A DNA stretch of 64,000 nucleotides, taken from NCBI RefSeq assembly GCF_002127325.2, contig NC_035437.2, positions 155,293,897 to 155,357,896 on the forward strand, read 5' to 3'. This DNA comes from Helianthus annuus (lineage: Eukaryota > Streptophyta > Magnoliopsida > Asterales > Asteraceae). The notes under the pieces are model-generated. The model had not been told where the DNA came from. It was given only the letters and a program-made list of their open reading frames with translations, and did not search any database. This document shows, in pieces, positions 48,617-61,642 of this stretch; the stretch's first letter is position 1; each line of letters begins with the position of its first letter. The position numbers and the translations under genes were made by a program.

Positions 48617-48901
48617 GAGAGCTAGAACCGTTAGGATCGTTTATCGGGAAACGAGCTTCGATCTAGACCCTTGAAGGGGTATGGTCCCAGATCTCGCGTC
48701 AGCATCGACCGCGAGTGACCATTACCCTTATCAAAACCCCCACCAGCCAACAACCTACTTGTGCCCATGCGAGAACGCGTCGACACAAGGGTTGAATCCA
48801 ATCTATCTAGTGATGAAGGAGGACTTACCTGGAACATGAAAACGGTAGAGTGATGCGACATAGCATCACATCTGGTGTATGAAAACGTAAGTATTCACAG
48901 C

Positions 48902-49082
48902 GATGCGGCCTCGCACCGCGTCCAGTGAACACTTCTATCAATACAAGGAAGCTGGATAACAGCAACAGTCACCACAGGCGACGATGCGGCCAGCACCGCA
49001 TCTCGCGTATTTCTTGATCACAAGCAAGAGACGCGATAACATCAGATGTTACCGCAGGCAGCGATGCGGCTCGCACCGCATC
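48902..49082 (+). repeat. 80-bp spaced GATGCGG/CCGCATC hairpins (5' LTR)
   Basis: Three stems with 7-bp arms and 6-7 base loops: 48902-48922 (second arm CCGCGTC, one G-T pair), 48983-49002 and 49063-49082. The spacing is 81 and 80 bp. The sequence between them is only weakly similar, so the hairpins are the conserved part. The same set occurs in the 3' LTR (60993-61173). Confidence 0.85.
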
Positions 49083-49263
49083 CTATATGCTCAACAAGTG
49101 GGACTGACACCACAGTGCAAGTGGAACCAATGGCAGTCACCTGTCAGGGCTACGTAAGCAACGGACTGACGTGGCATAACATCCACAACCGACAAGCCTG
49201 ACACACCTGCAAAGGTGCAGCACGTCGTCAGTCCGTCCATCATCCTGCTCCTTCACTCCTCGG

Positions 49264-49272
49264 CTATAAATA
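49264..49272 (+). promoter_or_regulatory. TATA box of the element 3 5' LTR
   Basis: CTATAAATA in the context CTCGGCTATAAATACCAACC. In the 3' LTR the same site reads CTATAACTA (near 61355), so only the 5' copy keeps the consensus. Confidence 0.7.
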
Positions 49273-49552
49273 CCAACCCCAAACCAGGTTTGAGGTATCT
49301 CTTCACAACTCTCTCACTACTACTACTACTATCATACTTTGCTTCCCAAGCAGATTACTGATTCTTACGCCGGAGAGTGGTAACAAGGAGCACCCCCCCA
49401 CCCCATCCTCCTTGTTACGAGTCACGGTTTGTTTCCTTGTGCAGGAGATCAACCCACCGGTGATCCAGCCAGCGATCCTCGAGAGGAAGGGATTAACCCT
49501 TCTTGACGAGACCAGTGAGTTAACCCTGCCCGGTTAACCATTGTTTCATCAT

Positions 49553-49570
49553 TGGCGCCCACCGCTACTC
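49553..49570 (+). other. primer-binding site region of element 3
   Basis: TTGGCGCCCACCGC starts one base after the LTR. Tat elements typically have a TGGCGCC-type PBS here. The priming tRNA cannot be named with confidence. Confidence 0.7.
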
Positions 49571-49610
49571 TTAGCATTTTTCAAACCATCCTTTTCCCTC
49601 TCTCACGATC

Positions 49611-51935
49611 ATGACTGATCACCAAAACAACACTGGGGATAACCAAAATCCCACAAATCTAAGTCCGGTAGGGGTCAATCCCTCAACATCGCAACCCGGA
49701 CACATCGGCACGTCCACACAAAGGGGTCCCTCCCTTACGTTTGGACATGACCTATCACAGTACGCATCTGTGATCCCACCAGGCATCGACGTTCATGCCT
49801 GGTACGACCAGCAGGCAGCCTTGCTGACAGCAACATACAACCGCGCTTGTGCGGAAGCGCAGATACAAGCTGGGCCCACCCCAGCACCGCACACCCCTGC
49901 CGATCGTATTTTACAATACGAAGGCCGGGCACATTCACGTCTAGCTTCGAGAAGCAGACGTGAAGACCGCGGATCATCTTACTGTTCGGTCCACACAATC
50001 AACGAGGATGATTCCGCGTACGGGTCCCACTCCAGGGGACCAGTACATACCTGCCTAGGTCCTTACGTTGAGGACAGGCAACGATCCGCATCCCGACATG
50101 GCTCTGGAATTCAGAGCCGGTTGGGCCCACAGCCATACACCGAAGGGTATGGTCGTACCGACCCGGACGACCATACATATTATGGGGATTCGCATAACAC
50201 CTGCAGCAGACTGGGAGGAAGCAACTATGTTCCTCCCACTCACCCCCGCAGTACATACCTCAGGGTTGCAAAGCGCCCTGAGAATAAAGCCTACAGACCA
50301 AAGGCTGCGGCCGAAAACTCCAAATTCGCCCCACGGATTGCCCGCGCCCATGTCACTACAACAAAGTTCCCATTCAATGTTGGGAAATAAAGTGGTTCGA
50401 CCGACCCGGACGACCACATGAACATTTTCATGGGTGCGGGGTGCAATGGCCAGTGGGATGAACCCACTTGGTGTAATTTTTTCCCCCAGACCCTCACGGG
50501 CCTGGCCAGGGCATGGTTCGATTCTTTGCCAGTAGGATCACTGGAATCATTCGAGGACTTGCACGCCAAGTTCCTCGCCCATTTTAGCCAGCAACGACGC
50601 CACGAACGTGATTCGATTGACGTCATGAATATCTGGCGTAGGGACGACTAATCTATCGAAGCATTCGTCGTCCGTTACAACAAAGAGTGCCTGGAGATAG
50701 GTGACGTGGCAGACCAAATGGCACGGAACCACTTCATCAAGGCCGTCAGGGACAAGCAGATGGTCATGACCATCTCTGGAAAGGAGGGCTTGCCTAAAAA
50801 ATGGGAAGATGTCATGACCGCGGTCAAGACATATGCCCAGACGCAGCGGTCTCTTGAACAGCACCTGGCAAAGGCACAGCCCCAAGCCGAAACCTCTTAC
50901 CAAGGGTCCAAGCGTAACAACAAACGCAACAGGGACGCGGGAAATCGCGACAGTATTTCTAAACCATACTTCCCGCGAACCAACCCGTTTGACCCAAGAA
51001 ACCATAACGCCCAACGGGACAACCGGGCGTCAAAGAAAGATTCTCGGGACCGCAACTGGACCGAGATCACTATGTCGCCAAGCGAGGTCCTTCTGGCGGA
51101 GCCGCAATTCCTGCGACCGGCCCAACCAATGAAGTCCAAGAAAAATCAGGATCTCACACTCTACTGTGAGTATCACAAAGACTCGGGCCACACCACCAAC
51201 AACTGCATCAGTCTCCGGCTGGAGATCGAGCGAGCCTTAAAAGTGGGGAAACTGCAACATCTTTTGCCAGGTGGACAAAAACCCACCAAGCGCATCACCC
51301 CTCACGGCGAAGGTACCTCCTCCGGGAAGAAAACCATGTACGTGGCCTCCACCCACATGATCAACGGAGGCAAAGGTAGGCCGCGCAAAGCGGCGAGAAG
51401 GCCGGACAATGACTGGAAAAACGAGCAAGTCGTCTTTCCAAAAGTTCGAGGCGGACCGCGCGATAGGCGCGCCGTCGTTATTACAGGCCAACTGGCACAC
51501 TACTGCACCGAGCGTCTATTCATCGACCCGGGCAGTACTTCTGACATAATCTACGAACAATGCTTCAACCAGTTTGACCAGGAGGACAAAGATCGGTTGC
51601 AAGTAGTAGATTACCCATTGGCTGGGTTCGCAGGGGAAACTGTCTTTCCCCTGGGCCAGATCACCTTTCCTGTGCGTCTGACCAGCGGAAGACACACAAG
51701 AACAGAAGAGGTAAACTTCATGGTTTTACCTCACACCTCTAGATATGACGTACTCCTTGGGAGAGAATCCCAGGGAGATTTTAATATGATTACATCCGTC
51801 CCCCACTCTGCTGTCGGTTTTCCAACCGAATCGGGGATCGCGATAATCTACGCACGAAGGGACGTCATGATGTCGGACGAAATACGTCCGACCAAGGTCG
51901 CAAGGCCCACCCCCAACAACCAACCAGAAAAATGA
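49611..51935 (+). pseudogene. gag and protease of element 3 (two in-frame stops)
   Basis: The frame starts MTDHQNNTGDNQ and is interrupted by TAA at 50388-50390 and TAA at 50649-50651, but the reading frame is kept to 51935. The first 250 codons are Ser/Arg/Gly-rich with no known fold. The gag domain lies at about 50420-50870 (ARAWFDSLPVGSLESFEDL, FLAHFSQQRRHE, RYNKECLEIGDVADQMA). A Tat-type CX2H knuckle-like motif follows (YCEYHKDSGHTTNNC). The aspartic protease is near 51520 (LFIDPGSTSDIIY), with the DPGS form usual in this lineage rather than DTGA. Confidence 0.88.
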
Positions 51936-53283
51936 GTTCTCAACGCAAGATACCCAGAACAAAAGGTTACCTTGGGTCACGCCTTGTCCCCGACCACAAA
52001 AGCGCACCTGAAGCAGCTTCTCTTCAGGAACCAAGACATTTTCGCATGGACACCCGCAGACATGACAGGCGCGTGATATTGCGCAACATCACTTGAATAC
52101 CTTGCCAGGTGTCAAGCCGGTGATCCAAGGCCAACGCCACCTTGGATCCGCTAAAAACCAGGCGATGCAAGAGCAGGTCGAAGAACTGCTCTCCGCAGGC
52201 ATCCTGTGGGAAGTTAAATACCAGACTTGGTTATCCAACCCAGTCATGGTAGAGAAACCATCCGGGGGCTGGCGCATGTGTGTCGATTACAAGGACCTCA
52301 ACAAAGCCTGCCCCAAGGATTGTTACGCACTTTCAGAAATCGACGAAAAGGTCGATAATCTCGCACCATTCAGATGGAAGTGTTTCCTCGATTGCTACAA
52401 AGGGTACCATCAGGTACAAATGGCAATCAAGGATGAAGACAAAACGGCATTCCGGACTCCTACCGGAAATTACTGTTATACAAAAATGCCGTTTGGTTTG
52501 CGCAACGCGGGCGCAACTTATCAAAAACTGATGAATGACACTTTCCGCGGGCAAATAAGCAAAAGTGTCGAAATCTACAAGGACGACCTAGTCGTCATGA
52601 GCATGGAAGAGGATACCATGCTCACAGACATTGACAGAACATTCCAGACTCTGCGAAGCGTTAACATAAAGCTTAATCCAGGGAAATGCTCGTTTGGAAT
52701 GGAAGAAGGCAAATTCCTTGGATTCATCGTGACTAAAGATGGATTCAAGGTAAACCCGGAGAAAGTTCAGGCGATCGAGCGCATGCCATCGCCTTCAACG
52801 ATGAAAGATATGCAACGACTGGCCGGCAGGCTAGCAGCACTCAACAGATTCTTAGCCAACCATGCAGCTAAGTCTTATCCTTTCATCAAGACCCTGCGGA
52901 ACTGTTTAAAGAAAGAACAATTCCAGTGGACCGCAGAGACTGACAACGCTTTCTGGGAAATGAAGGAGTGTTTGATACAACTCCCAACTTTAACCGCACC
53001 ACGCAAGGATGAGCCACTCATATTATACCTATCCGCCGCGGACAACGCGGTGGGTGCGGTATTGATAGTGGAACGTGAGGGGGTTCAAACACCCAACTAT
53101 TATATCAGCAAGATGCTCAACGACCCAGAGACGAGATACTCAATAATGGAGAAGTTGGTGTTAGCATTGGTGCACGCTTCAAGGCGGTTGCGACGCTACT
53201 TCGCAAATCACGTCATCACAGTGCTAACCAATTACAGGATCGGCCCGATCCTATATACAAACCTGACATCTCTGGGAGATTAG
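51936..53283 (+). pseudogene. reverse transcriptase and first RNase H of element 3
   Basis: After the TGA at 51933-51935 the same frame continues (ARYPEQKVTLG..NQDIFAW) to a shift near 52075. From 52093 it has 396 open codons: GVKPVIQGQRHLGSAKNQAM, WRMCVDYKDLNKACPKDCYA, DCYKGYHQVQMAIKDEDKTAF, MPFGLRNAGATYQKLMN, and the catalytic box reads IYKDDLVVMS (YKDD at 52575-52586). The RNase H follows (LYLSAADNAVGAVL, SIMEKLVLALVHASRRLR) and ends at a shift near 53270. Confidence 0.9.
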
Positions 53284-54056
53284 CAAAATGGGCAATAGAG
53301 TTGGGCGCACACACGCTGAACTACAAACCGCGCCCCGCAATTAAAAGCCAAATCTTAGCTGATTTCGCCGCCGAAGTACCGGTGAATCGCATCCAAGAAT
53401 GCGAAGAAGCACAAAACCCTGCACCAACGCCATCTTCCTCAGAAACCTGGGCACTATTCACCGATGGTGCCTCCAACGAGGAAGGAGCGGGCGCAGGTCT
53501 ACGACTCGTCAGCCCCGATGGTCAAGAGCTTACGTATGCAATCCGCCTCGATTTCAAAAGCACAAACAACGAGGCCGAATATGAAGCCCTACTGGCAGGA
53601 CTACGTTTAGCAGTTAAACTCGGCATGCAACATCTGGAAGCACACGTCGACTCTTTGTTAGTTGCAGGACAGATACGCGGCGACTATGCGGCAAAGGGGG
53701 ATATCATGATCCTCTACCTCGAGCAAGCCCTGCAACTAACATCAAAGTTCACTTCGTTTAATATCCGACATATTAACAAGAGTGAAAACAAATCCGCAGA
53801 TGCACTCTCCAAACTTGCATCCACCAGCTTCCAACACCTGGAAAAGGAAATACGTATCGAAATTCTACAAAATCCTTCAGTACCCCTGCGCCAGGTCAAC
53901 GTCATCCAATACGGGACAACGTCGTGGATGACACCAATTGTTGCATATTTGCAATCAGGTGTGACTCCCGAAAGCAAATCGGAGGCACGCAAGCTACAAT
54001 ACAAAGCGTGCCATTATCAAATGGGAGACGGTATCTTATACCGCAATCATACCTAG
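53284..54056 (+). pseudogene. second, archaeal-type RNase H domain (aRH) of element 3
   Basis: A frame of 251 codons from 53301. After a linker (HTLNYKPRPAIKSQILADFAAE) comes a full RNase H fold with acidic active-site residues: ALFTDGASNEEGAGAG (Asp), TNNEAEYEALLAGL (Glu), AHVDSLLVAGQIRGDY (Asp) and NKSADALSKLA (Asp). An additional aRH between the normal RNase H and integrase is known from the Tat lineage and is thought to complement RNA-primer removal. It is shifted from both the upstream RNase H and the downstream integrase. Confidence 0.9.
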
Positions 54057-55156
54057 GGCCACTACTACGATGCGTCAACCCCCAGGATGCCACATACCTC
54101 ATCAGAGAGATACATGAGGGTATGTGCGGCATACACGCAGGACCACGCATGGTAGTGGCCAAAATCATGAATGCTGGGTATTACTGGCCCGGCATGCACC
54201 TGGACGCCGTCAAAGAGCTGCGCAAATGTATCAACTGTCAACGACATGCTCCAAAAACTTTGCGCCCCAAAAACAACCTGATCCCGGTCACCACCGCATG
54301 GCCCTTCCAGAAATGGGCAATCGACGTTGTGGGACCTTTCCCTGACGCACCAGGTGCAGTCAAATTTATCATAGTAGCGGTTGATTACTTCACAAAATGG
54401 GTAGAGGCAAAACCGCTCGCCTCAACCACTGCTATGATAACAAGAAAATTCATATGGGAACACATCATCTGCCGTTTCGGTCTACCAATGTGCATCGTTA
54501 CCGATAATGGCACCAACTTTGCTGCTGACGAATTTCAAAAATGGCTAGAAGAACTACACATTGAACACATATTCTCATCCGTGGCACATCCGCAAGGAAA
54601 CGGCCAAGTTGAGAGTATCAACAAAAGTCTGGTCGAGGGCATCAAAGCAAGGTTGGGAACAGCCAGGCATGGCTGGGTCGATGAACTCCCAAGTATCCTA
54701 TGGGCTCACCGCACAAGCCCAAAAACAAGCAATGGGGAAACACCCTTCAGCCTAGTCTATGGCTCAGAAGCGGTGATCCCCGCGGAAGTAGGCCTCCCTT
54801 CACCCAGAATGTTGGCTATTGAAAAAATAGACAACAGTATGGAACGCAGGATCGACTTAGACCTTTTGGAAGAAAGGCGTGAAAACGCTGCCATCAATGA
54901 GGCTAAGTACAAATCCAAACTGGAAAAGTACTACAACTCGCGTGTCCGCGTTTGTACTTTCAACCCGGGAGACTACGTCCTCCGTGACAATGAAGCATCT
55001 AATGCTGAACGCCCAGGGAAACTTGCCCCCAAGTGGGAAGGACCCTACCTCATCAATGAGGTCTTGGGAAAAGGCGCGTACAAATTGCAAACGTTAGAAG
55101 GCGAACCTATCGCACGAACATGGAACGCACAACAGCTCAGACGCTGTTACATGTAA
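54020..55156 (+). pseudogene. integrase of element 3
   Basis: The frame contains the zinc-binding H-H-C-C (IHEGMCGIHAGPRMV..CINCQRH). The catalytic Asp follows at KWAIDVVGPFPD, the second at CIVTDNGTNFAADEF and the Glu at PQGNGQVESINKSLVEG. Then come HRTSPKTSNGETPFSLVYG and a C-terminal region (FNPGDYVLRD..KWEGPYLINEVLGKGAYKL) ending NAQQLRRCYM. There is no chromodomain. From about 54026 to the stop at 55156 it is open and all catalytic residues are present. It is shifted from the aRH frame, so it would not be made as part of one polyprotein in this copy. Confidence 0.92.
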
Positions 55157-55691
55157 GCCATGTTTTTACATTTTCATGTAACCTATCGGGCCGCAGGCCA
55201 TTTGCAATTAAATAAACGAACGATTCAATGCAATATTGTTTGTTACTACTATTACAAATGCGTGTTCCACTTTGCGGTATCCGCAAAAACAGATTGGCAA
55301 AATCTTCATTCGCGATACCCACACAAAGTGTCAACCACACACAAATATTGTAATAGGCCAGCAAAAGGCAGAATATCAAGTGTCTATCCGGCTGGATAGA
55401 CAAGTTTTTACAAAACTTACACAATTCCTAAACCCTAAAAAGGTAAATAATGGAATTAACGCGTACTCATACGACAAAGGTATGGAGTATACTTGACCCC
55501 ATTCACAAATGGGTAAAGTTCCGCATATATACGTTCAAACATGCAAGAATTAAAAACACTTGTACAAATTGAACAACAAACTTTATATTCAAAAAATTCA
55601 AGCACCCACGCGATGCTTAATGGATTTACATAGAGTTTTCCACATTTACAAAAGGAAAGCAAAAAAGGGGGCACACTAGCCAACCTAAACC
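55157..55691. other. convergent 3' ends of sense pol and antisense gene
   Basis: A 535-bp AT-rich spacer between the pol stop and the antisense gene stop. AATAAA at about 55210 on the plus strand could serve as polyadenylation signal for sense RNA. No gene seen. Confidence 0.5.
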
Positions 55692-58600
55692 CTATTTTGT
55701 ACCACTGATACCCGCGCCATCTTGGCCGCCCCCAGCGGGATTTTCCTCTTCTGCATCGGCATACAGCATCCGCAACCGGTCAACGTAATCCGCAGCCTCT
55801 AAACATTCGTCCAACTTCTCCACGCAAGAGAGGGACGTATCATAAAAGGCGGCTACACCCGCGTTAAGACGACCTTCGGTGTCCACGTGACGAAACCTGG
55901 ATCGCTCTTCGGTAAAACCACCTTCAGACATGACGTTCATATGACCGACACAGCGGCTGTAACCAGCTTTAAAACCGGCATCGCGAGCACGTTCCTTGAC
56001 CAAGTCCAAACCAGTTGCGGTTTCAGGAGCATCCATGATAGCCTGAACAATCTGCGACAAAAGGATAACAAGGTCATCATATGGTTAACCTTTGATACAA
56101 AGTCAGATAATACTTACATATGCGATGCCTTGACTCCGCATCCACTCACGATCAGCCTCCAGTTGTTGGAACGAAGAAGTCAGAGCATCTCTGGCCTCAA
56201 CAGCAGCGTTAGCCCGCTCTTCCGCAACAGTCGCGCGGGCTGTAAGGTCCGTAACCGCGACCTCCAGGGCCTGAACTTCAGCCTTTCAAAGAGCAGAAAA
56301 CAGTTTACTCAGTAAACATTCTCAAAAGGCAGAGAAATATACAACAGAGGTAACGAATCATACCTGAAGGCTGGCAACAACTTTATCCAAACAGGTGCGC
56401 TCAGCATTCGCCTCTTCAAGAGCCTTAGAAGAACGGCTCTCCCTCTCTTTGGCCTCCTCAAGGGCCTTTGCAGCACGAGCCCCCGCTTCCTTGGCCTCTC
56501 CTAGCGCCTTAACAGCCCGGGCCTCTGCTTGTTGCGCTTTAACTGCAACCGCCTCAGCTGCAGCCTTCTCTTTGATCAAAGCAGCGTTCGCTGCCTTGGC
56601 ATTTGTCAGCTCCTGACGAGCACGAAACAGAGTGTCATTCTGCTTAGCCCAAGAATCATTCCACTTCTTGCGCTCATTGGAAAACTTTTCGTTCCAACTC
56701 TTGCGTTCATCAGAAAGGAGTTTGGCAAGAGTATGAAACTGTTTCAGCTGCGCAGTGGCAGCCCACTCCGAGGTCTGTTTCTGCTTCTCAAAAGCAGCTC
56801 TATCCCTTTCAAGCTGCTCCGCACCCTCACGAGCAGCTTTCACCAACTCTTCCGCTTCAGCCCGCAAACGAGCAGTTTCTTCTTCCCTGCGGCCCAATAC
56901 TTTGTAGTCTTCCAAAATGGCATTCGCCACAATGGAACTTCCTACTAGCATTGTAGAAAGTTGGTTGATGCGCAGCTCACGGGGTGCGGCACGGGCACGC
57001 TCAGTTTCAAAGGGGGTGCCCAGACCACCCAGAATCTCCTTGCACGCCGAAGGATCGTTAGAAATATCATCCCCCTGCATAACTCTCCAGGCTGAATCGG
57101 AGGTCCGTCATAACCCGCACCAACGGAAGTAGAACTGGTAACCTTCTCACCAGCAGAAGGTTTCTGCGGCTCAGCACCATGCTGCCGCACCTCAGCATCA
57201 GACTTCTGTTTCCCAGCATCTGAAAACCTCAAGTCCAATCCATCACCCTCATTGGGAGAGATCAGATTGTCGGAGGAATCCACAGTATCAAAGATCTGGG
57301 AAGCAGTCTTCTCCACCGTCTTCTCCACCTGCACGGTGGGATCGCGAACAAAAGGTGCCACAGGCTCCTTGGGCACCACAGGCTCCTTTGGCACCCCCGC
57401 GTCCGCAGCAGCGGTATGCGTGGGAGACGAATGGAAATCAAAAAATGAAAAACCTGCATCTTGGGATTCTGCAATACAAAGAATAATAACTGTTAATCTA
57501 ACACATTGTGCATGCAAAACAATGCAAAAAGTTACACTTACCAGCAGCAACCGCAAGTTTCTTTTGCGCCGGAGCAGCCCTTTTAGACTGCAGTTTCCGA
57601 CGTTTTGGTTCACCACCACCAGCAGCCTTTTGCTCTGGTTCTCTCTTATCACCAACAACGGGGGGACCCGCAGCAGTTCCACCCGCAGCCGCACCACTAC
57701 CTAGAACACCCAAACCCTCAAGGGTATCAGATACTACCACGTAATCGGTATATCTGCGGTAACAAGATCAATAGGTACCTGCGGCCTGAGACACCAAAGA
57801 TGGGGCATCTAAGCCTTCAGCCCTCCCCTTACCACGACCCCGCGTGGTTTTCTTCACCTGCTTCTTCTCCACATGCTTCTTAGGGATGCGCTTTTCAAAC
57901 TTCCCCAAGTCCGCAAGGATAGCTGCATGGGAGAAATCAAGAAAATAAATTACAAGGGTAAACTTAGAAAACAAGTACAACTTGGAAAATACCTTTTTCG
58001 CCTTCTGGCACGGGTGCCCTCAACACATCACGTTTGGGTACACGGAAGTTACCAACAATTTCTAGATTGAAACCTTCCCGTAACTCAACCGGAATCAGAT
58101 CAACTTGGCCCTTGAAATCGGCTCAAACATCCTCCACAAGCCAACCGCATCCACTGATACAACACATGCATGCATATTACTACAAGGATAACGAAGCAAG
58201 AAAAACAATAAAAAGCAACAGGCTTACCACCACTCTTTTCCCGCAGAACGGGTCTTGCCTTCCTGTCTGGCCTCGTAAGCATCATCCGCAACACCCACAG
58301 CTGGTTGTTGTCTAACTTCTTGAGTTCAATAGGCCGCAGCCTAGAAAACCAATCCACAGTCTTCGCGGTGGCAACAGGAATGTCCTCATCAGTAACACCA
58401 ATATTGACATCCCGGAAAGTCATATTGGCATATACCGCACAGGCTTTAACATAGAAGAACTTCATCTTCCAATGGGTCACACCCTTCGGAGGTGTCATCA
58501 ACTTCAAACTCCCATGACGTTGAGTAAAAGAGAAAAAACCAGTGTTCACCGTCAACTGGTAAAATCGCCGGAAATTTTCAACAGTAATGGGCAAGCCATG

Positions 58601-58990
58601 GGCACGGAAGGTATACTCAAAGTTCCTGATTCGGAACATCCCAAAGGGACTAAGTTGGGAGATATGGAGATGGTAGTACTCCAACACCTCCGCAACGAAC
58701 ACCGTCACCTGCAACCGAAGATTGCCTTCGGTGAAAAAATCTGCCCACAAAGTAATATAACCGGCCGGAGCATCGGCACCGGTATCCCCCTCTTGTGGGT
58801 AAGTAGCCTCCCACTCGTCGGCCATATGAACGGTGGTCATCAGGTTTTTAAAACTACCCTTTGACCACTTCAACACCGGTAACCCACCACCGACGGCACC
58901 ACCATCATCATCTTCATCTTCATCAGCCGCCACAACCGGCTGTTCAGGGTTTTCACCTTCCACATTATGTGGATTTGATGGTTCAGCCAT
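55692..58990 (-). pseudogene. six-exon antisense gene in the Tat element ('putative transposase, gypsy type' family), three lesions
   Basis: ATG at 58990 (MAEPSNPHNVEG). Exons by GT-AG borders and frame: 58990-58228, 58153-57993, 57922-57542, 57468-56364, 56282-56118, 56051-55692. Introns are 74, 70, 73, 81 and 66 bp. Exon 1 encodes a globular region (SKGSFKNLMTTVHMADEW, YITLWADFFTEGNLRL, FRRFYQLTVNTGFFSF) of the type annotated in plants as putative gypsy-type transposase, without a catalytic triad that I can identify. Exon 3 is Lys/Arg-rich. Exon 4 ends in a long Ala/Glu/Lys coiled coil (ETARLRAEAEELVKAARE; about 240 residues). Lesions are a one-base loss in exon 2 (near 58108), TGA at 57768-57770 and a one-base loss near 57085. 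Intact length would be about 978 residues. Extra antisense ORFs are known in Tat/Retand elements; the function is unknown. Confidence 0.85.
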
Positions 58991-59150
58991 CAGAAATATC
59001 GAAGAAACGGAAGAAAGTGAGTGGAAAAACTCGACTCAACCTCACCGGAAGTTCAGAAATATCGTCAGAGAAGACAAAGGAAATGTTTTCTCTCACTGGA
59101 AAATTTTTTGAAATTTCGAACAAGTGAGGGGAAACCACGAACGGTTTCCC

Positions 59151-59158
59151 CTTATATA
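59151..59158 (-). promoter_or_regulatory. putative TATA box of the antisense gene
   Basis: Minus-strand TATATAAG in GGGTATATAAGGGGAAACC, about 160 bp upstream of the ATG at 58990. A start about 30 bp downstream would give a roughly 130-base 5' UTR. It lies outside both LTRs, so the antisense gene would have its own promoter. Confidence 0.6.
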
Positions 59159-60153
59159 CCCATCGCAATTAATGCGGAGGGAGAAAACGAATCATCACGT
59201 TCAAAAAGAACGAATTACGCGACACCACGTGTCAAGCGCCGTTTCCGCTGACGGTTATCACGCGCGTGTGGCCGCCCACGCGCCTGACAAGAGAGACCTT
59301 TACACTCCTTGCTACAGTGCATTTAATGCCTCGGGCAGTGCAAATGTCCTTTCATTTCAGCACATGCCAGAATGATCTCACCAACTTCCACCAACTCACA
59401 CGTGAGATCAGCCACGTATGCAACAAAAAGCGACTACATTATCCAACTATAAGCGGCATGCGGTTTCTCTGGTTCCCACACCATAACCCATACCGCATGT
59501 CGTTTTTTTACATACCCCTGAAAATAGGCAAAAATATATATCTCCACACTATAAGGGGGTATAACACCTATCCGCACTACCCACGAGCACACGTGGAATA
59601 TGCGGAAATGACACACATGAGCCCGTTCAGGTGTGTCAGATACTCAGAACCAGCGTTGTTCTTTGGACTGAACCGCATCTCAGAAACAGGTAAACCGCAT
59701 TGCCTTCACTCTCTTCAAGCTTCAAATCCCTCCTATCCGGTTTACAACCACAGAGGGTGCTTGAACAACTTCTTCAACGAGAAGAAGCAAGGGAATATAC
59801 GTGAGCGCACATCAGCAACCCTGACTCCTGATCCTTCAAGAGCCACATCCGAGCAACACACCCGTTTCGAGCGAATATGGGGTGACAAAACCGCAGACAC
59901 TCATAAGTCACTGCGGACATAACCATAGCTTCCGCAAACGGTTGCTACGGAAGAGCCACAACTAACTCCACATCGAGGAACGAAACTACTTCAAGGAAAA
60001 CTCCTCGGTATTGGAGCGTGAAGGAAGGTGCCCAAGGAAGAGATGCGGCCGAGATCCCCAATGATCATACGAGCCCTTGTCGAACAACAAGCGATCGAAC
60101 AAGCGGTAACAAGTCTGCTTATGACTTTGTTACCCTACTTGTAAGCGGGATAG

Positions 60154-60197
60154 AATAAACAATGGTAGGCATTACCATGCCTATGACCATGTTTATT
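60154..60197. repeat. long imperfect hairpin
   Basis: AATAAACAATGGTAGGC pairs with GCCTATGACCATGTTTATT around the loop ATTACCAT, with two small bulges. Confidence 0.75.
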
Positions 60198-60427
60198 TGA
60201 CCATTATCCAGAATCACATTGTTCGACCAAACATGGCCAATAATGACGCAAGTACCCAACGTTGTTCCCATAACCGTGGCCAACAATGTCAAGCAACGAG
60301 GTAACCGCAAAGGACGTGCGGTTACTTGAGAGCTAATGGGAAGAACATGAACACCCCACGAAAGGAATCATCATTAGATATCCAATCATGGGAGCAGCAC
60401 GCTCTCTTCTTCGTTCACCACCTCAAA

Positions 60428-60525
60428 GGTTGGTTCGAAGTTTGTGCACACCTCCAACCATCATCTCAGAGATTGGTTCGAAGTTTGTACACTTCCTCCA
60501 ACTAATTCCCATAATTGGTTCGGCA
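60428..60525. repeat. 43-bp tandem repeat
   Basis: Two full units and a partial one with the core ATTGGTTCGAAGTTTGTRCAC then CCTCCAAC (60428-60470, 60471-60513, then ATTGGTTCGGCACACC). Confidence 0.75.
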
Positions 60526-60750
60526 CACCAACAGGTGGCAACCAGCCAAAGGCTGAGAATTTCGCATCAGACGAAACATTTTCACCGATACGGAAGAGGC
60601 GTCAAATGACCCTTTCAGACCTCTAGCTTGATTTACAAACAGAGAAGACCATCCACATGGTCTAGGATCTTCTCCAGACTCCAAACTACCTTCTAAACAC
60701 CATAGTCCAGTACTCCTCCCACATACAACTTGCATGTGGCAGCAACACTA

Positions 60751-60762
60751 GACTGGGGGACT
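60751..60762 (+). other. polypurine tract of element 3
   Basis: GACTGGGGGACT directly before the 3' LTR start TGAAGGGG; a short PPT typical for Ty3 elements. Confidence 0.75.
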
Positions 60763-61637
60763 TGAAGGGGTATGGTCCCAGATCTCGCGTCAGCATCGAC
60801 CGCGAGTGACCATTACCCTTATCAAAACCCCCACCAGCCAACAACCTACTTGTGCCCATGCGAGAACGCGTCGACACAAGGGTTGAATCCAATCTATCTA
60901 GTGATGAAGGAGGACTTACCTGGAACATGAGAACGGTAGAGTGATGCGACATAGCATCACATCTGGTGTATGAAAACGGAAGTATTCACAGCGATGCGGC
61001 CTCGCACCGTGTCCAGTGAACACTTCTATCAATACAAGGAAGCTGGATAACAGCAACAGTCACCACAGGCGACGATGCGGCCAGCACCGCATCTCGCGTA
61101 TTTCTTGATCACAAGCAAGAGACGCGATAACATCAGATGTTACCGCAGGCAGCGATGCGGCTCGCACCGCATCCTATATGCTCAACAAGTGGGACTGACA
61201 CCACAGTGCAAGTGGCACCAATGGCAGTCACCTGTCAGGGCTACGTAAGCAATGGACTGACGTGGCATAACATCCACAACCGACAAGCCTGACACACCTA
61301 CAAAGGTGCAGCACGTCGTCAGTCCGTCCATCATCCTCCTCCTTCACTCCTCGGCTATAACTACCAACCCCAAACCAGGTTTGACGTATCTCTTCACAAC
61401 TCTCTCACCACTACTACTATCATACTTTTCTTCCCAAGCAGATTACTGATTCTTACGCCGGAGAGTGGTAACAAGGAGCACCCCCACCCCATCCCCCTTG
61501 TTACGAGTCAAATTTTGTTTCCTTGTGCAGGAGATCAACCCACCGGTGATCCAGTCAGCGATCCTCGAGAGGAAGGGATTAACCCTTCTTGACGAGACCA
61601 GTGAGTTAACCCTGCCCGGTTAACCATTGTTTCATCA
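60763..61637 (+). repeat. 3' LTR of element 3
   Basis: Copy of 48672-49551 with about 16 substitutions and small indels, followed by the ACCCT target duplication. It retains the three hairpin units but has a mutated TATA box (CTATAACTA). Confidence 0.93.
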
Positions 61638-61642
61638 ACCCT

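Follow-up and report, generated by a model that had tools for sequence, protein, structure and literature searches.

A Putative Split Protein-Coding Gene with Its Own TATA Box on the Antisense Strand of a Sunflower Retand Retrotransposon

Introduction

The antisense ORFs of Retand retrotransposons have been known for years without an assigned function. ORFs with a TRP28/Transposase_28 domain were described in antisense orientation in 97% of Retand clusters, some of which also carry Smc- or TolA-like domains (Vicient 2025, PMC11963269), and in an earlier survey 23% of Retand elements carried Transposase_28 (PMC6317226). The locus studied here, located in a 64-kb stretch of the Helianthus annuus genome that was analyzed as a whole (hereafter, the window), raises the question of whether such ORFs are separate units or exons of a single gene and, in the latter case, how an element copied through RNA could retain the introns.

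Results

The Host Element

The element harboring the antisense gene is a Ty3 LTR retrotransposon of the Tat clade and Retand type, as judged from its Pfam domains, its region sizes, and the antisense Transposase_28 (table 1). It is flanked by a 5-bp duplication (ACCCT, at 48667-48671 and 61638-61642), and its LTRs exhibit 97.6% identity, with 16 mismatches and 2 gaps in an alignment of 882 positions. The gag-pol region matched RVT_1 (1.5e-30), RT_RNaseH_2, RVT_3, rve (3.6e-14), and H2C2, comprising reverse transcriptase, RNase H, and integrase. The region between pol and the 3' LTR (55157-60762, 5606 bp), the internal region (49552-60762, 11211 bp), and the LTRs (875-880 bp) all fall within the ranges given for Retand, i.e., 2.9-6.6 kb, 7.4-12.9 kb, and 315-1194 bp, respectively (PMC11963269), and the Transposase_28 ORF lies in antisense between pol and the 3' LTR. 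No second copy was found within the window; genome-wide, 1837 full-length Retand elements make up 25% of the 7314 annotated in sunflower (PMC12844716).

Table 1. Coordinates of the element and of its antisense gene in the window
Feature	Position	Strand	Remarks
Whole LTR retrotransposon	48672..61637	+	TG..CA ends, matching flanks
5' LTR, 880 bp	48672..49551	+	
gag-pol region, frame-broken in this copy	49575..55156	+	Pfam domains; ORFs in different frames
3' LTR, 875 bp	60763..61637	+	
TATA box TATATAAG of antisense gene, 168 nt 5' of ATG	59151..59158	-	
Exon 1, ATG at 58990, Transposase_28 (TRP28) domain	58228..58990	-	PF04195 match
Intron 1, 74 nt, phase 1	58154..58227	-	GT..AG in 34/35 copies
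Exon 2, frame-broken in this copy	57993..58153	-	
Intron 2, 70 nt, phase 1	57923..57992	-	GT..AG in 34/35 copies
Exon 3, basic linker with NLS-like KRRKLQSKR	57542..57922	-	
Optional exitron-like GT..AG segment in exon 3, 78 nt (multiple of 3)	57701..57778	-	
Intron 3, 73 nt, phase 1	57469..57541	-	GT..AG in 34/35 copies; lengths 71-76
Exon 4, acidic region, then Ala/Glu/Lys-rich coiled coil	56364..57468	-	
Intron 4, 81 nt, phase 0	56283..56363	-	GT..AG in 35/35 copies; lengths 81-90
Exon 5, coiled coil	56118..56282	-	Identical length in 35/35 copies
Intron 5, 66 nt, phase 0	56052..56117	-	GT..AG in 34/35 copies
Exon 6, conserved C-terminal helical region, TAG stop 55694-55692	55692..56051	-	
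AATATAA 3' of stop (hexamers AATATA, ATATAA), weak plant poly(A) signal candidate	55583..55589	-	

Exon–Intron Organization

The antisense gene (58990-55692, minus strand) comprises six exons and five GT-AG introns of 66-81 nt. This layout had been proposed in an earlier note on this DNA and proved exact to the base, including all five junctions (58228/58153, 57993/57922, 57542/57468, 56364/56282, and 56118/56051). The gene is convergent to gag-pol, with its end approximately 0.5 kb from that of pol. The introns are distinct in base composition, with 65-70% A+T and 39-50% T where the exons have 42-51% A+T, and no exon window of equal length reaches the A+T content of any of the five; when only T is counted, intron 5 is equaled or exceeded by 20 exon windows. 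By scanning GT..AG pairs of 60-90 nt with thresholds taken after the fact from these same introns, we observed 26 T- and AT-rich pairs on the minus strand, all at the five intron places, and no such pair among the 243 that the plus strand carries over the same interval.

The copy in the window is broken at three places, in exons 2, 3, and 4. Two one-base losses had been suggested as the only interruptions of the frame. The one in exon 2 is real, as the exon length is off by one relative to 32 of the 35 other copies (the remaining 3 match the window), whereas the site in exon 4, near 57083, is a larger deletion of about 73 nt, all 35 other copies being 71-74 nt longer. An in-frame stop in exon 3 (57770-57768), where 34 of the 35 carry a sense codon, had been overlooked.

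Conservation of Splice Sites and Introns

Comparison with 35 close DNA copies from the sunflower genome revealed that all five introns keep GT-AG in 32 of them (counts per intron in table 1). Introns that are absent or non-GT-AG in related copies, which the earlier note had named as evidence against a multi-exon gene antisense to gag-pol, are thus not what was found. The pairwise difference amounted to 0.56% at donor and 1.67% at acceptor dinucleotides against 13.4% in intron interiors, so that the splice dinucleotides are 8-24 times less diverged, and the exons are phase-consistent across copies. All five intron positions are also common to 20 copies of a second subfamily (intron 1 in 20/20), and intron 4 appears as a stop-bearing insertion in two distant relatives. 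Indels occurred at 0.71 per kb per copy in exons and 11.07 in introns, and those that were not a multiple of three numbered 42/58 and 109/141, respectively, in the 35 copies; indels are thus scarce in the exons but often frame-disrupting where they occur, which is to be expected if the copies are decaying.

A test on dinucleotides based only on protein, using 40 junction peptides, was weaker than that on DNA: GT was strictly the best donor in 33/40 and AG strictly the best acceptor in 29/40, with the poorest outcome at intron 2, where the junction lengths of relatives differ. Among 204 protein models spanning this intron, 83 skip it exactly, 5 nearly so, 111 have a larger or shifted gap, and 5 have none. 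Six of the matches listed lie on short ena/jgi contigs that may derive from DNA or RNA, and the five reaching an intron continue into it unspliced. From the conservation of the splice sites and the gene models of other groups, we infer that the five introns are spliced.

A sixth intron at 57778-57701 was considered and rejected, as this segment is coding in the largest class of relatives and exhibits a dN/dS of 0.34 and low divergence. It is bounded by GT..AG in 34 of the 35 copies and is 78 nt long in 34; among 203 homologue models spanning it, 82 run through uninterrupted and 27 skip it exactly. Since the codon pattern and the low divergence indicate exon, the segment is listed as optional and exitron-like.

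Selection on the Coding Frame

The median dN/dS of the exons was 0.284 over 630 pairs from 36 sequences, distant from the ratio near 1 that the earlier note would have taken as evidence against a gene. Divergence at codon positions 1, 2, and 3 was 0.058, 0.052, and 0.120, and that of the introns was 0.128. Among 18 disjoint pairs, dN was lower than dS in 17 (median 0.39), and dN was under the intron distance in only 13. Exon 1 exhibited 0.20 in the gene frame but 1.17 and 1.93 when the frame was shifted, exon 6 exhibited 0.21 against 1.11 and 1.66, and the shifted frames of exons 1, 4, and 6 together spanned 1.05-1.93. One plus-strand frame of exon 1, whose third positions coincide with those of the gene, gave 0.34. 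Exons 2, 3, and 5 gave 0.30, 0.51, and 0.37. The ATG is present in 33 and the stop codon in 34 of the 35 copies. At the level of sequence comparison, these patterns indicate purifying selection on the predicted protein, and selection at the codon level speaks for a protein, rather than antisense RNA alone, as the thing that is kept.

Promoter Signals

The separate promoter claimed in the earlier note finds a counterpart in a TATA box that is conserved across copies. The octamer TATATAAG occurs only once across the two strands of the internal region, 1.6 kb off the 3' LTR, and is unchanged in 34 of the 35 close copies, the remaining one being gapped. Its position speaks, though not decisively, against an HBZ-like promoter located in that LTR. 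In the second subfamily, TATAWA is located 163-168 nt before the ATG in 20/20 copies, and in 4 of 5 further copies at approximately 163-177 nt.

The Predicted Protein and Its Relatives

Exon 1 matched PF04195 (Transposase_28) with an E-value of 1.2e-7 (32.3 bits, cut-off 26.2), and the profile was recovered at E<=0.1 in 46 of 59 aligned relatives. In many copies, gene models (mostly of 900-1000 aa) unite Transposase_28, a linker resembling an NLS, and the coiled coil in one protein, bearing out the order of domains suggested before (Transposase_28, basic linker, and Ala/Glu/Lys coiled coil). Three protein searches were inspected through their best 120 of 165, 213, and 185 matches, among which every species-named match was from Helianthus. 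In the third, 59 of the 105 new models among the matches listed begin in exon 1 and end in exon 6, with a median length of 953 aa; two models of this extent, 978 and 979 aa long, are "isoform X2" entries of RefSeq. A KRRxLxxKR-like NLS was observed in 52 of 66 gene-spanning models.

AlphaFold yielded a pLDDT of 44 for the N-terminal part (59 sequences), whose fold could not be modeled, and of 62 for the C-terminal part (51 sequences), predicted as mainly long helices; a profile search of the PDB returned nothing at E<=1. Given the N-terminal result and the lack of a PDB relative, any molecular function proposed for the protein is guesswork. No relative was detected among viral or prokaryote contigs, as expected for a plant element.

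Discussion

A Second Transcription Unit and Its Alternatives

The exon–intron anatomy, the conserved splice sites and TATA box, the purifying selection, and the one-protein gene models, all read from sequence comparisons, are best explained by a second transcription unit on the minus strand, namely a six-exon protein-coding gene under its own TATA promoter. We regard this overall explanation as likely, and that the gene is split as highly probable. The competing view that the strand merely carries several unspliced ORFs draws on an ATG-to-stop scan of the minus strand between pol and the 3' LTR, which yields three ORFs of at least 300 nt (891, 723, and 345 nt), on a survey by ORF Finder in which antisense ORFs are tallied individually (PMC11963269), and on certain homologues that read through into introns. 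Exons 2, 3, and 5 lie outside those three frames, yet their dN/dS values are low, and the contrast between splice dinucleotides and interiors, together with introns that diverge like third codon positions, also speaks against it; we consider this view very improbable.

Equally improbable is a captured host gene or nested element in passive decay, with the introns as leftovers. Introns are unusual in genes of retroelements, and the origin of Transposase_28 is given as unknown (PMC11963269), both in keeping with such a history; against it stand the dN/dS of 0.28 and the large copy number, as one exon-1 protein had 8165 first-look candidates, and 138 of the 148 scored were without a stop in exon 1. 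An ancient capture as DNA followed by selection is possible and agrees with the explanation we favor. It is slightly less improbable, and still quite unlikely, that the antisense RNA itself is what matters, through double-stranded RNA, silencing, or transcriptional interference, with the coding frame as a relic. Any minus-strand transcript would be complementary to the sense genomic RNA, and ORFs of Retand and Grande are reported to be transcribed in antisense (PMC7264820), whereas the observed selection tracks codon positions and gives ratios above 1 in shifted frames. A role of the antisense RNA and one of the protein could coexist.

Under the preferred explanation of a split gene, Pol II would transcribe the antisense strand in the manner of a host gene, starting near 59.12 kb, and the spliceosome would excise the five introns. 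The resulting protein of approximately 900-1000 aa would enter the nucleus and oligomerize via its coiled coil, where its Transposase_28 region may work on the DNA or RNA of the element itself, as a regulator or as a helper before integration; the role of a nuclear regulator is put forward tentatively, at somewhat less than even chances. The earlier note had offered double-stranded RNA, a regulator, or a particle partner as conceivable roles. The RNA that is reverse transcribed would be the sense strand, in which the introns read CT..AC and could not be spliced, and each new copy would therefore inherit them. This proposal, made in the earlier note, fits two observations: none of 40 scored places, the window included, exhibited a continuous match from exon 5 to exon 6 (examined for intron 5 only), and the plus strand lacks intron-like pairs.

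That the split gene is conserved and selected suggests that the element needs the encoded protein. We consider it conceivable, though doubtful, that Retand divides its genes between the strands, with the replicating genome in sense and a host-like, separately promoted split gene in antisense, and that the introns may be functional instead of merely tolerated. Functional introns would let the antisense RNA pass for an mRNA of host type (favoring export and escape from silencing), would prevent it from serving as template when new copies are made, and, with the optional 78 nt in exon 3, would permit isoforms.

Relation to Known Systems

The antisense Transposase_28 ORFs of Retand were already known, and what the present analysis adds is their reading as exons of one split gene. 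The ORFs of PMC11963269 are alike in orientation, in their interval between pol and the 3' LTR, and in Transposase_28, and their Smc- and TolA-like domains are what the present coiled coil would give. The available account consists of ORF Finder predictions and describes no introns, whereas here the TRP28 and coiled-coil ORFs would belong as exons to a single gene whose promoter is conserved. The titles and abstract openings searched did not mention introns in any antisense gene of Retand, which is not proof of their absence. If the split gene of approximately 900-1000 aa and its own promoter are real, it becomes possible to express and test the correct protein, single-ORF surveys have been cutting it into pieces, and catalogues list fragments. 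It would also show a way for an element copied through RNA to retain introns and account for many sunflower "hypothetical protein" annotations as parts of an abundant element.

Among other antisense genes, gene23 of maize Grande is likewise an accessory gene in a long 3' region, with its own promoter and a nuclear protein (PMC7264820). HBZ of HTLV-1, also encoded in antisense by an LTR retroelement, yields both spliced and unspliced transcripts and a bZIP product, and differs in its TATA-less promoters and in a spliced form that begins in the 3' LTR with a distinct first exon (PMC2731725); the sunflower gene has an internal TATA and five introns inside the coding region, and no sequence relation is claimed. 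Introns are spliced from the RNA of the plant LTR retrotransposons Ogre and EVADE (PMC12786077) and sunflower Tyran and Varan (PMC7730604), but these lie in the gag/pol-encoding RNA. In a 2025 review, Ogre and EVADE are singled out as notable because introns are otherwise generally lacking, and its available text does not mention antisense introns (PMC12786077). A mobile-element antisense gene with a spliceosomal intron spliced in vivo is found in the homing endonuclease gene of a group I intron, which belongs to an unrelated element and encodes an unrelated protein (PMC9548176).

The Host Element and the Layout of Its Antisense Gene

The element carrying the gene is bounded by LTRs of 880 and 875 bp, which share 97.6% identity, and terminates in TG..CA with the 5-bp flank ACCCT present twice. 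Its RT, RNase H, and integrase domains lie on the plus strand, spread over ORFs in different frames, so that gag-pol is broken in this copy. A long region between pol and the 3′ LTR, together with the antisense Transposase_28 (Pfam) domain, fits the Retand lineage as portrayed in excerpts of PMC11963269. Three protein searches, taken to their best 120 matches each, gave Helianthus for every match with a species name.

Coordinates of the retrotransposon, its putative six-exon antisense gene, and associated features
Feature	Positions	Strand	Remarks
LTR retrotransposon	48672-61637		LTR pair, TG..CA ends, duplicated flank
TATA octamer TATATAAG	59158-59151	minus	unique within the internal region, both strands considered
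Exon 1	58990-58228	minus	
Exon 2	58153-57993	minus	
Exon 3	57922-57542	minus	
Candidate exitron-like segment	57778-57701	minus	78 nt, GT..AG, inside exon 3
Exon 4	57468-56364	minus	
Exon 5	56282-56118	minus	
Exon 6	56051-55692	minus	

The re-derived layout reproduced to the base the five exon/exon junctions that an earlier note had proposed from the sequence alone, with introns of 74, 70, 73, 81, and 66 nt, GT-AG at each, and phases 1, 1, 1, 0, and 0. Intron A+T content was 65–70%, a level reached by none of the exon windows of equal length. Using cut-offs taken from the five introns themselves, we found that 26 of the 473 minus-strand GT..AG pairs of 60–90 nt were T- and AT-rich, all located at the five intron places, and that none of the 243 such pairs on the plus strand of the gene was.

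Transposase_28 ORFs in antisense orientation already serve as a hallmark of Retand elements: PMC11963269, in excerpt, counts them in 97% of recent-copy clusters and mentions DNA binding as a suspected role; an earlier survey, as excerpted, put the share of Retand elements with the domain at 23% (PMC6317226). The excerpted text of a 2025 review describes introns as generally absent from plant LTR retrotransposons, apart from the notable cases of Ogre and EVADE (PMC12786077), and a passage of a 2020 review urges that antisense and spliced transcripts be looked for (PMC7264820). Thus, an antisense accessory gene was already known; what the sequence evidence on exons, introns, and promoter shows in addition is that it would constitute one split gene with a conserved putative promoter. 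HTLV-1 provides a known case of a spliced antisense gene, HBZ, as outlined in part of PMC2731725.

Conservation of Splice Sites among Genomic Copies

Forty scored exon-1 matches (from 1,805 first-look candidates) comprised the window itself and 39 further DNA copies from the sunflower genome, of which four (L026, L029, L032, and L037) were excluded because their similarity was limited to upstream parts of the gene. These four match at 91–94% over the upstream 1.2–2.2 kb, and the similarity stops abruptly within the gene. Aligning other genomic copies, as the earlier note had advised, revealed GT..AG at introns 1–5 in 34, 34, 34, 35, and 34 of the 35 close copies, respectively, and at all five in 32; with the excluded four included, the counts were 38/39, 36/38, 35/39, 35/39, and 34/39. 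Pairwise divergence amounted to 0.56% in donor and 1.67% in acceptor dinucleotides, and to 13.4% in intron interiors. Introns 1 and 2 were almost constant in length and introns 3, 4, and 5 varied, partly by non-multiples of three. Relative to the window, copies averaged 0.71 indels per kb of exon and 11.07 per kb of intron, of which 42/58 and 109/141, respectively, were not multiples of three. Exon 2 and the initial part of exon 4 were omitted from this count on account of the window's own damage there. The interior of intron 5 (56117-56052, minus strand) diverged by 0.30 across the 36 sequences, versus 0.05–0.16 in introns 1–4.

The antisense gene is damaged in the window copy. Its frame is broken in exon 2, where the length differs from 32 of the 35 other copies and equals that of three; exon 3 contains a stop codon from which 34/35 copies are free; and exon 4 lacks 71–74 nt that all 35 retain. 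In-frame stops were absent from exon 1 in 31 of the 36 sequences, from the second part of exon 4 in 26, and from exon 6 in 31.

Selection on the Coding Sequence

Over the 630 pairs formed by these 36 sequences, divergence at codon positions 1, 2, and 3 was 0.058, 0.052, and 0.120, and that of introns 0.128. The dN/dS of the exons, which had been put forward as a check, gave a median of 0.284 rather than a value near 1; by exon, the medians were 0.20, 0.30, and 0.51 for exons 1–3, 0.37 and 0.24 for the two parts of exon 4, 0.37 for exon 5, and 0.21 for exon 6. When exons 1, 4, and 6 were read in shifted frames, dN/dS was 1.05–1.93, and the three plus-strand frames of exon 1 yielded 1.44, 1.95, and 0.34, the last being the frame whose third positions coincide with those of the true exon 1 frame. 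The 630 pairs being non-independent, 18 disjoint nearest pairs served as a control, with a median dN/dS of 0.39: dN was smaller than dS in 17 of them and smaller than the intron distance in 13. Decay of copies after insertion raises dN/dS, and the measured figures should therefore understate selection during spread. The start codon was retained in 33/35 copies and the stop codon in 34/35.

Introns in Homologous Gene Models

Spliced alignment to the window of 344 homologous proteins, among the matches listed, placed introns 1–5 base-exact in 142/207, 83/204, 118/180, 150/190, and 150/173 spanning models, which are annotation-group predictions aligned under a program permitting GT-AG introns only. 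Spanning models without any intron at the respective junctions numbered 9, 5, 9, 0, and 1, and the remainder exhibited a gap close by or a larger gap. Out of 105 proteins newly listed in a third search, 59 reach from the first exon to the sixth (median length 953 aa; 62–91% identity to the window), in which introns exact or at most 30 nt off numbered five in 12 models, four in 43, and three in four; intron 2 was the one most frequently unplaced among the 105. Two of the homologous models are RefSeq "isoform X2" proteins, a class of model in whose building RNA evidence is used.

Counting against a split gene, five homologues on short contigs (P0021, P0110, P0196, P0198, and P0201, among the matches listed) continue unspliced into introns, and a sixth, P0070, stops before any intron; the unspliced ones may represent genomic DNA or sense RNA. 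Intron 1 read-throughs carried the donor-implied Gly-Lys in 11/11 cases, a count fixed by the sampling because these were hand-chosen from 23 contexts as entering the intron with Gly-Lys, with matches of 18–76% in the interior and 58–98% at the exon end. A further read-through, in P0021, has Gly-Thr instead.

Putative Promoter

The octamer TATATAAG was intact in 34/35 copies and gapped in one. Divergence was 13.8% in the leader behind it and 6.4% in the 92 nt ahead. A TATAWA motif was also located 163–168 nt ahead of the ATG in 20/20 copies of a second subfamily and about 163–177 nt ahead in four of five further copies. Together, these sequences provide good evidence for a separate putative promoter of the antisense gene.

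Other Subfamilies and the Direction of Copying

The 20 copies of subfamily 2, hand-chosen from 148 scored P0021 matches (8,165 candidates), were aligned to the full-length model proteins P0335 (identity 80% to the window and 68–77% to these copies) and P0278 (83–93% to these copies). The window's intron positions 1–5 were shared by 20, 20, 19, 19, and 20 of the 20 copies in the P0335 alignment, where intron 2 falls at residues 309–318, and by 20, 20, 20, 19, and 20 in the P0278 alignment. Extra gaps on the P0335 paths, at residues 380–390 (18/20) and 580–581 (20/20), were rejected as introns, being T-poor and lying where P0335 is without a segment. Five additional copies were drawn from a P0037 search: L071 and L072, near subfamily 2, each have the full set of five introns; the distant L068 and L069 (51–55% identity) have introns 1, 2, 3, and 5 in the P0278 alignment and, at intron 4, an in-place insertion bearing stops; L070 is traceable through introns 1 and 2 only.

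A probe joining exons 5 and 6 was continuous at none of its 40 scored places (window included; 779 candidates), each consisting of two separate pieces. This absence of copies from spliced antisense RNA at the probed junction fits the view that sense RNA alone is copied into new elements.

The family is very large, with 8,165 and 8,512 first-look candidates for two exon-1 proteins, and exon 1 was stop-free in 138 of the 148 scored P0021 matches. By eye, the protein model P0269 seems to be a mosaic, its N-terminus resembling the window's subfamily and its body another, which suggests recombination between subfamilies.

The Predicted Protein

The models, mostly 900–1000 aa long, open with the Transposase_28 domain and continue through a basic linker and an acidic region into a long coiled coil rich in Ala, Glu, and Lys, followed by a conserved helical part at the C-terminus. 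An NLS-like motif was found in the basic linker of 52/66 models spanning the gene. At the 78-nt segment of exon 3, 82/203 spanning models have no intron and 27/203 skip it exactly, the rest having a shifted or larger gap; its borders are retained in 34/35 copies, and its third-position divergence is 0.043 versus 0.093 in other exon 3 sequence. We call this segment exitron-like and putatively optional. The same in-frame segment is missing from the two RefSeq "isoform X2" models.

In two gene models, P0294 and P0327, further Pfam domains are joined to the antisense gene (PF10551 with PF21056, and PF01717 with PF08267, the latter pair named methionine synthase by the source), through either chimeric annotation or a real fusion.
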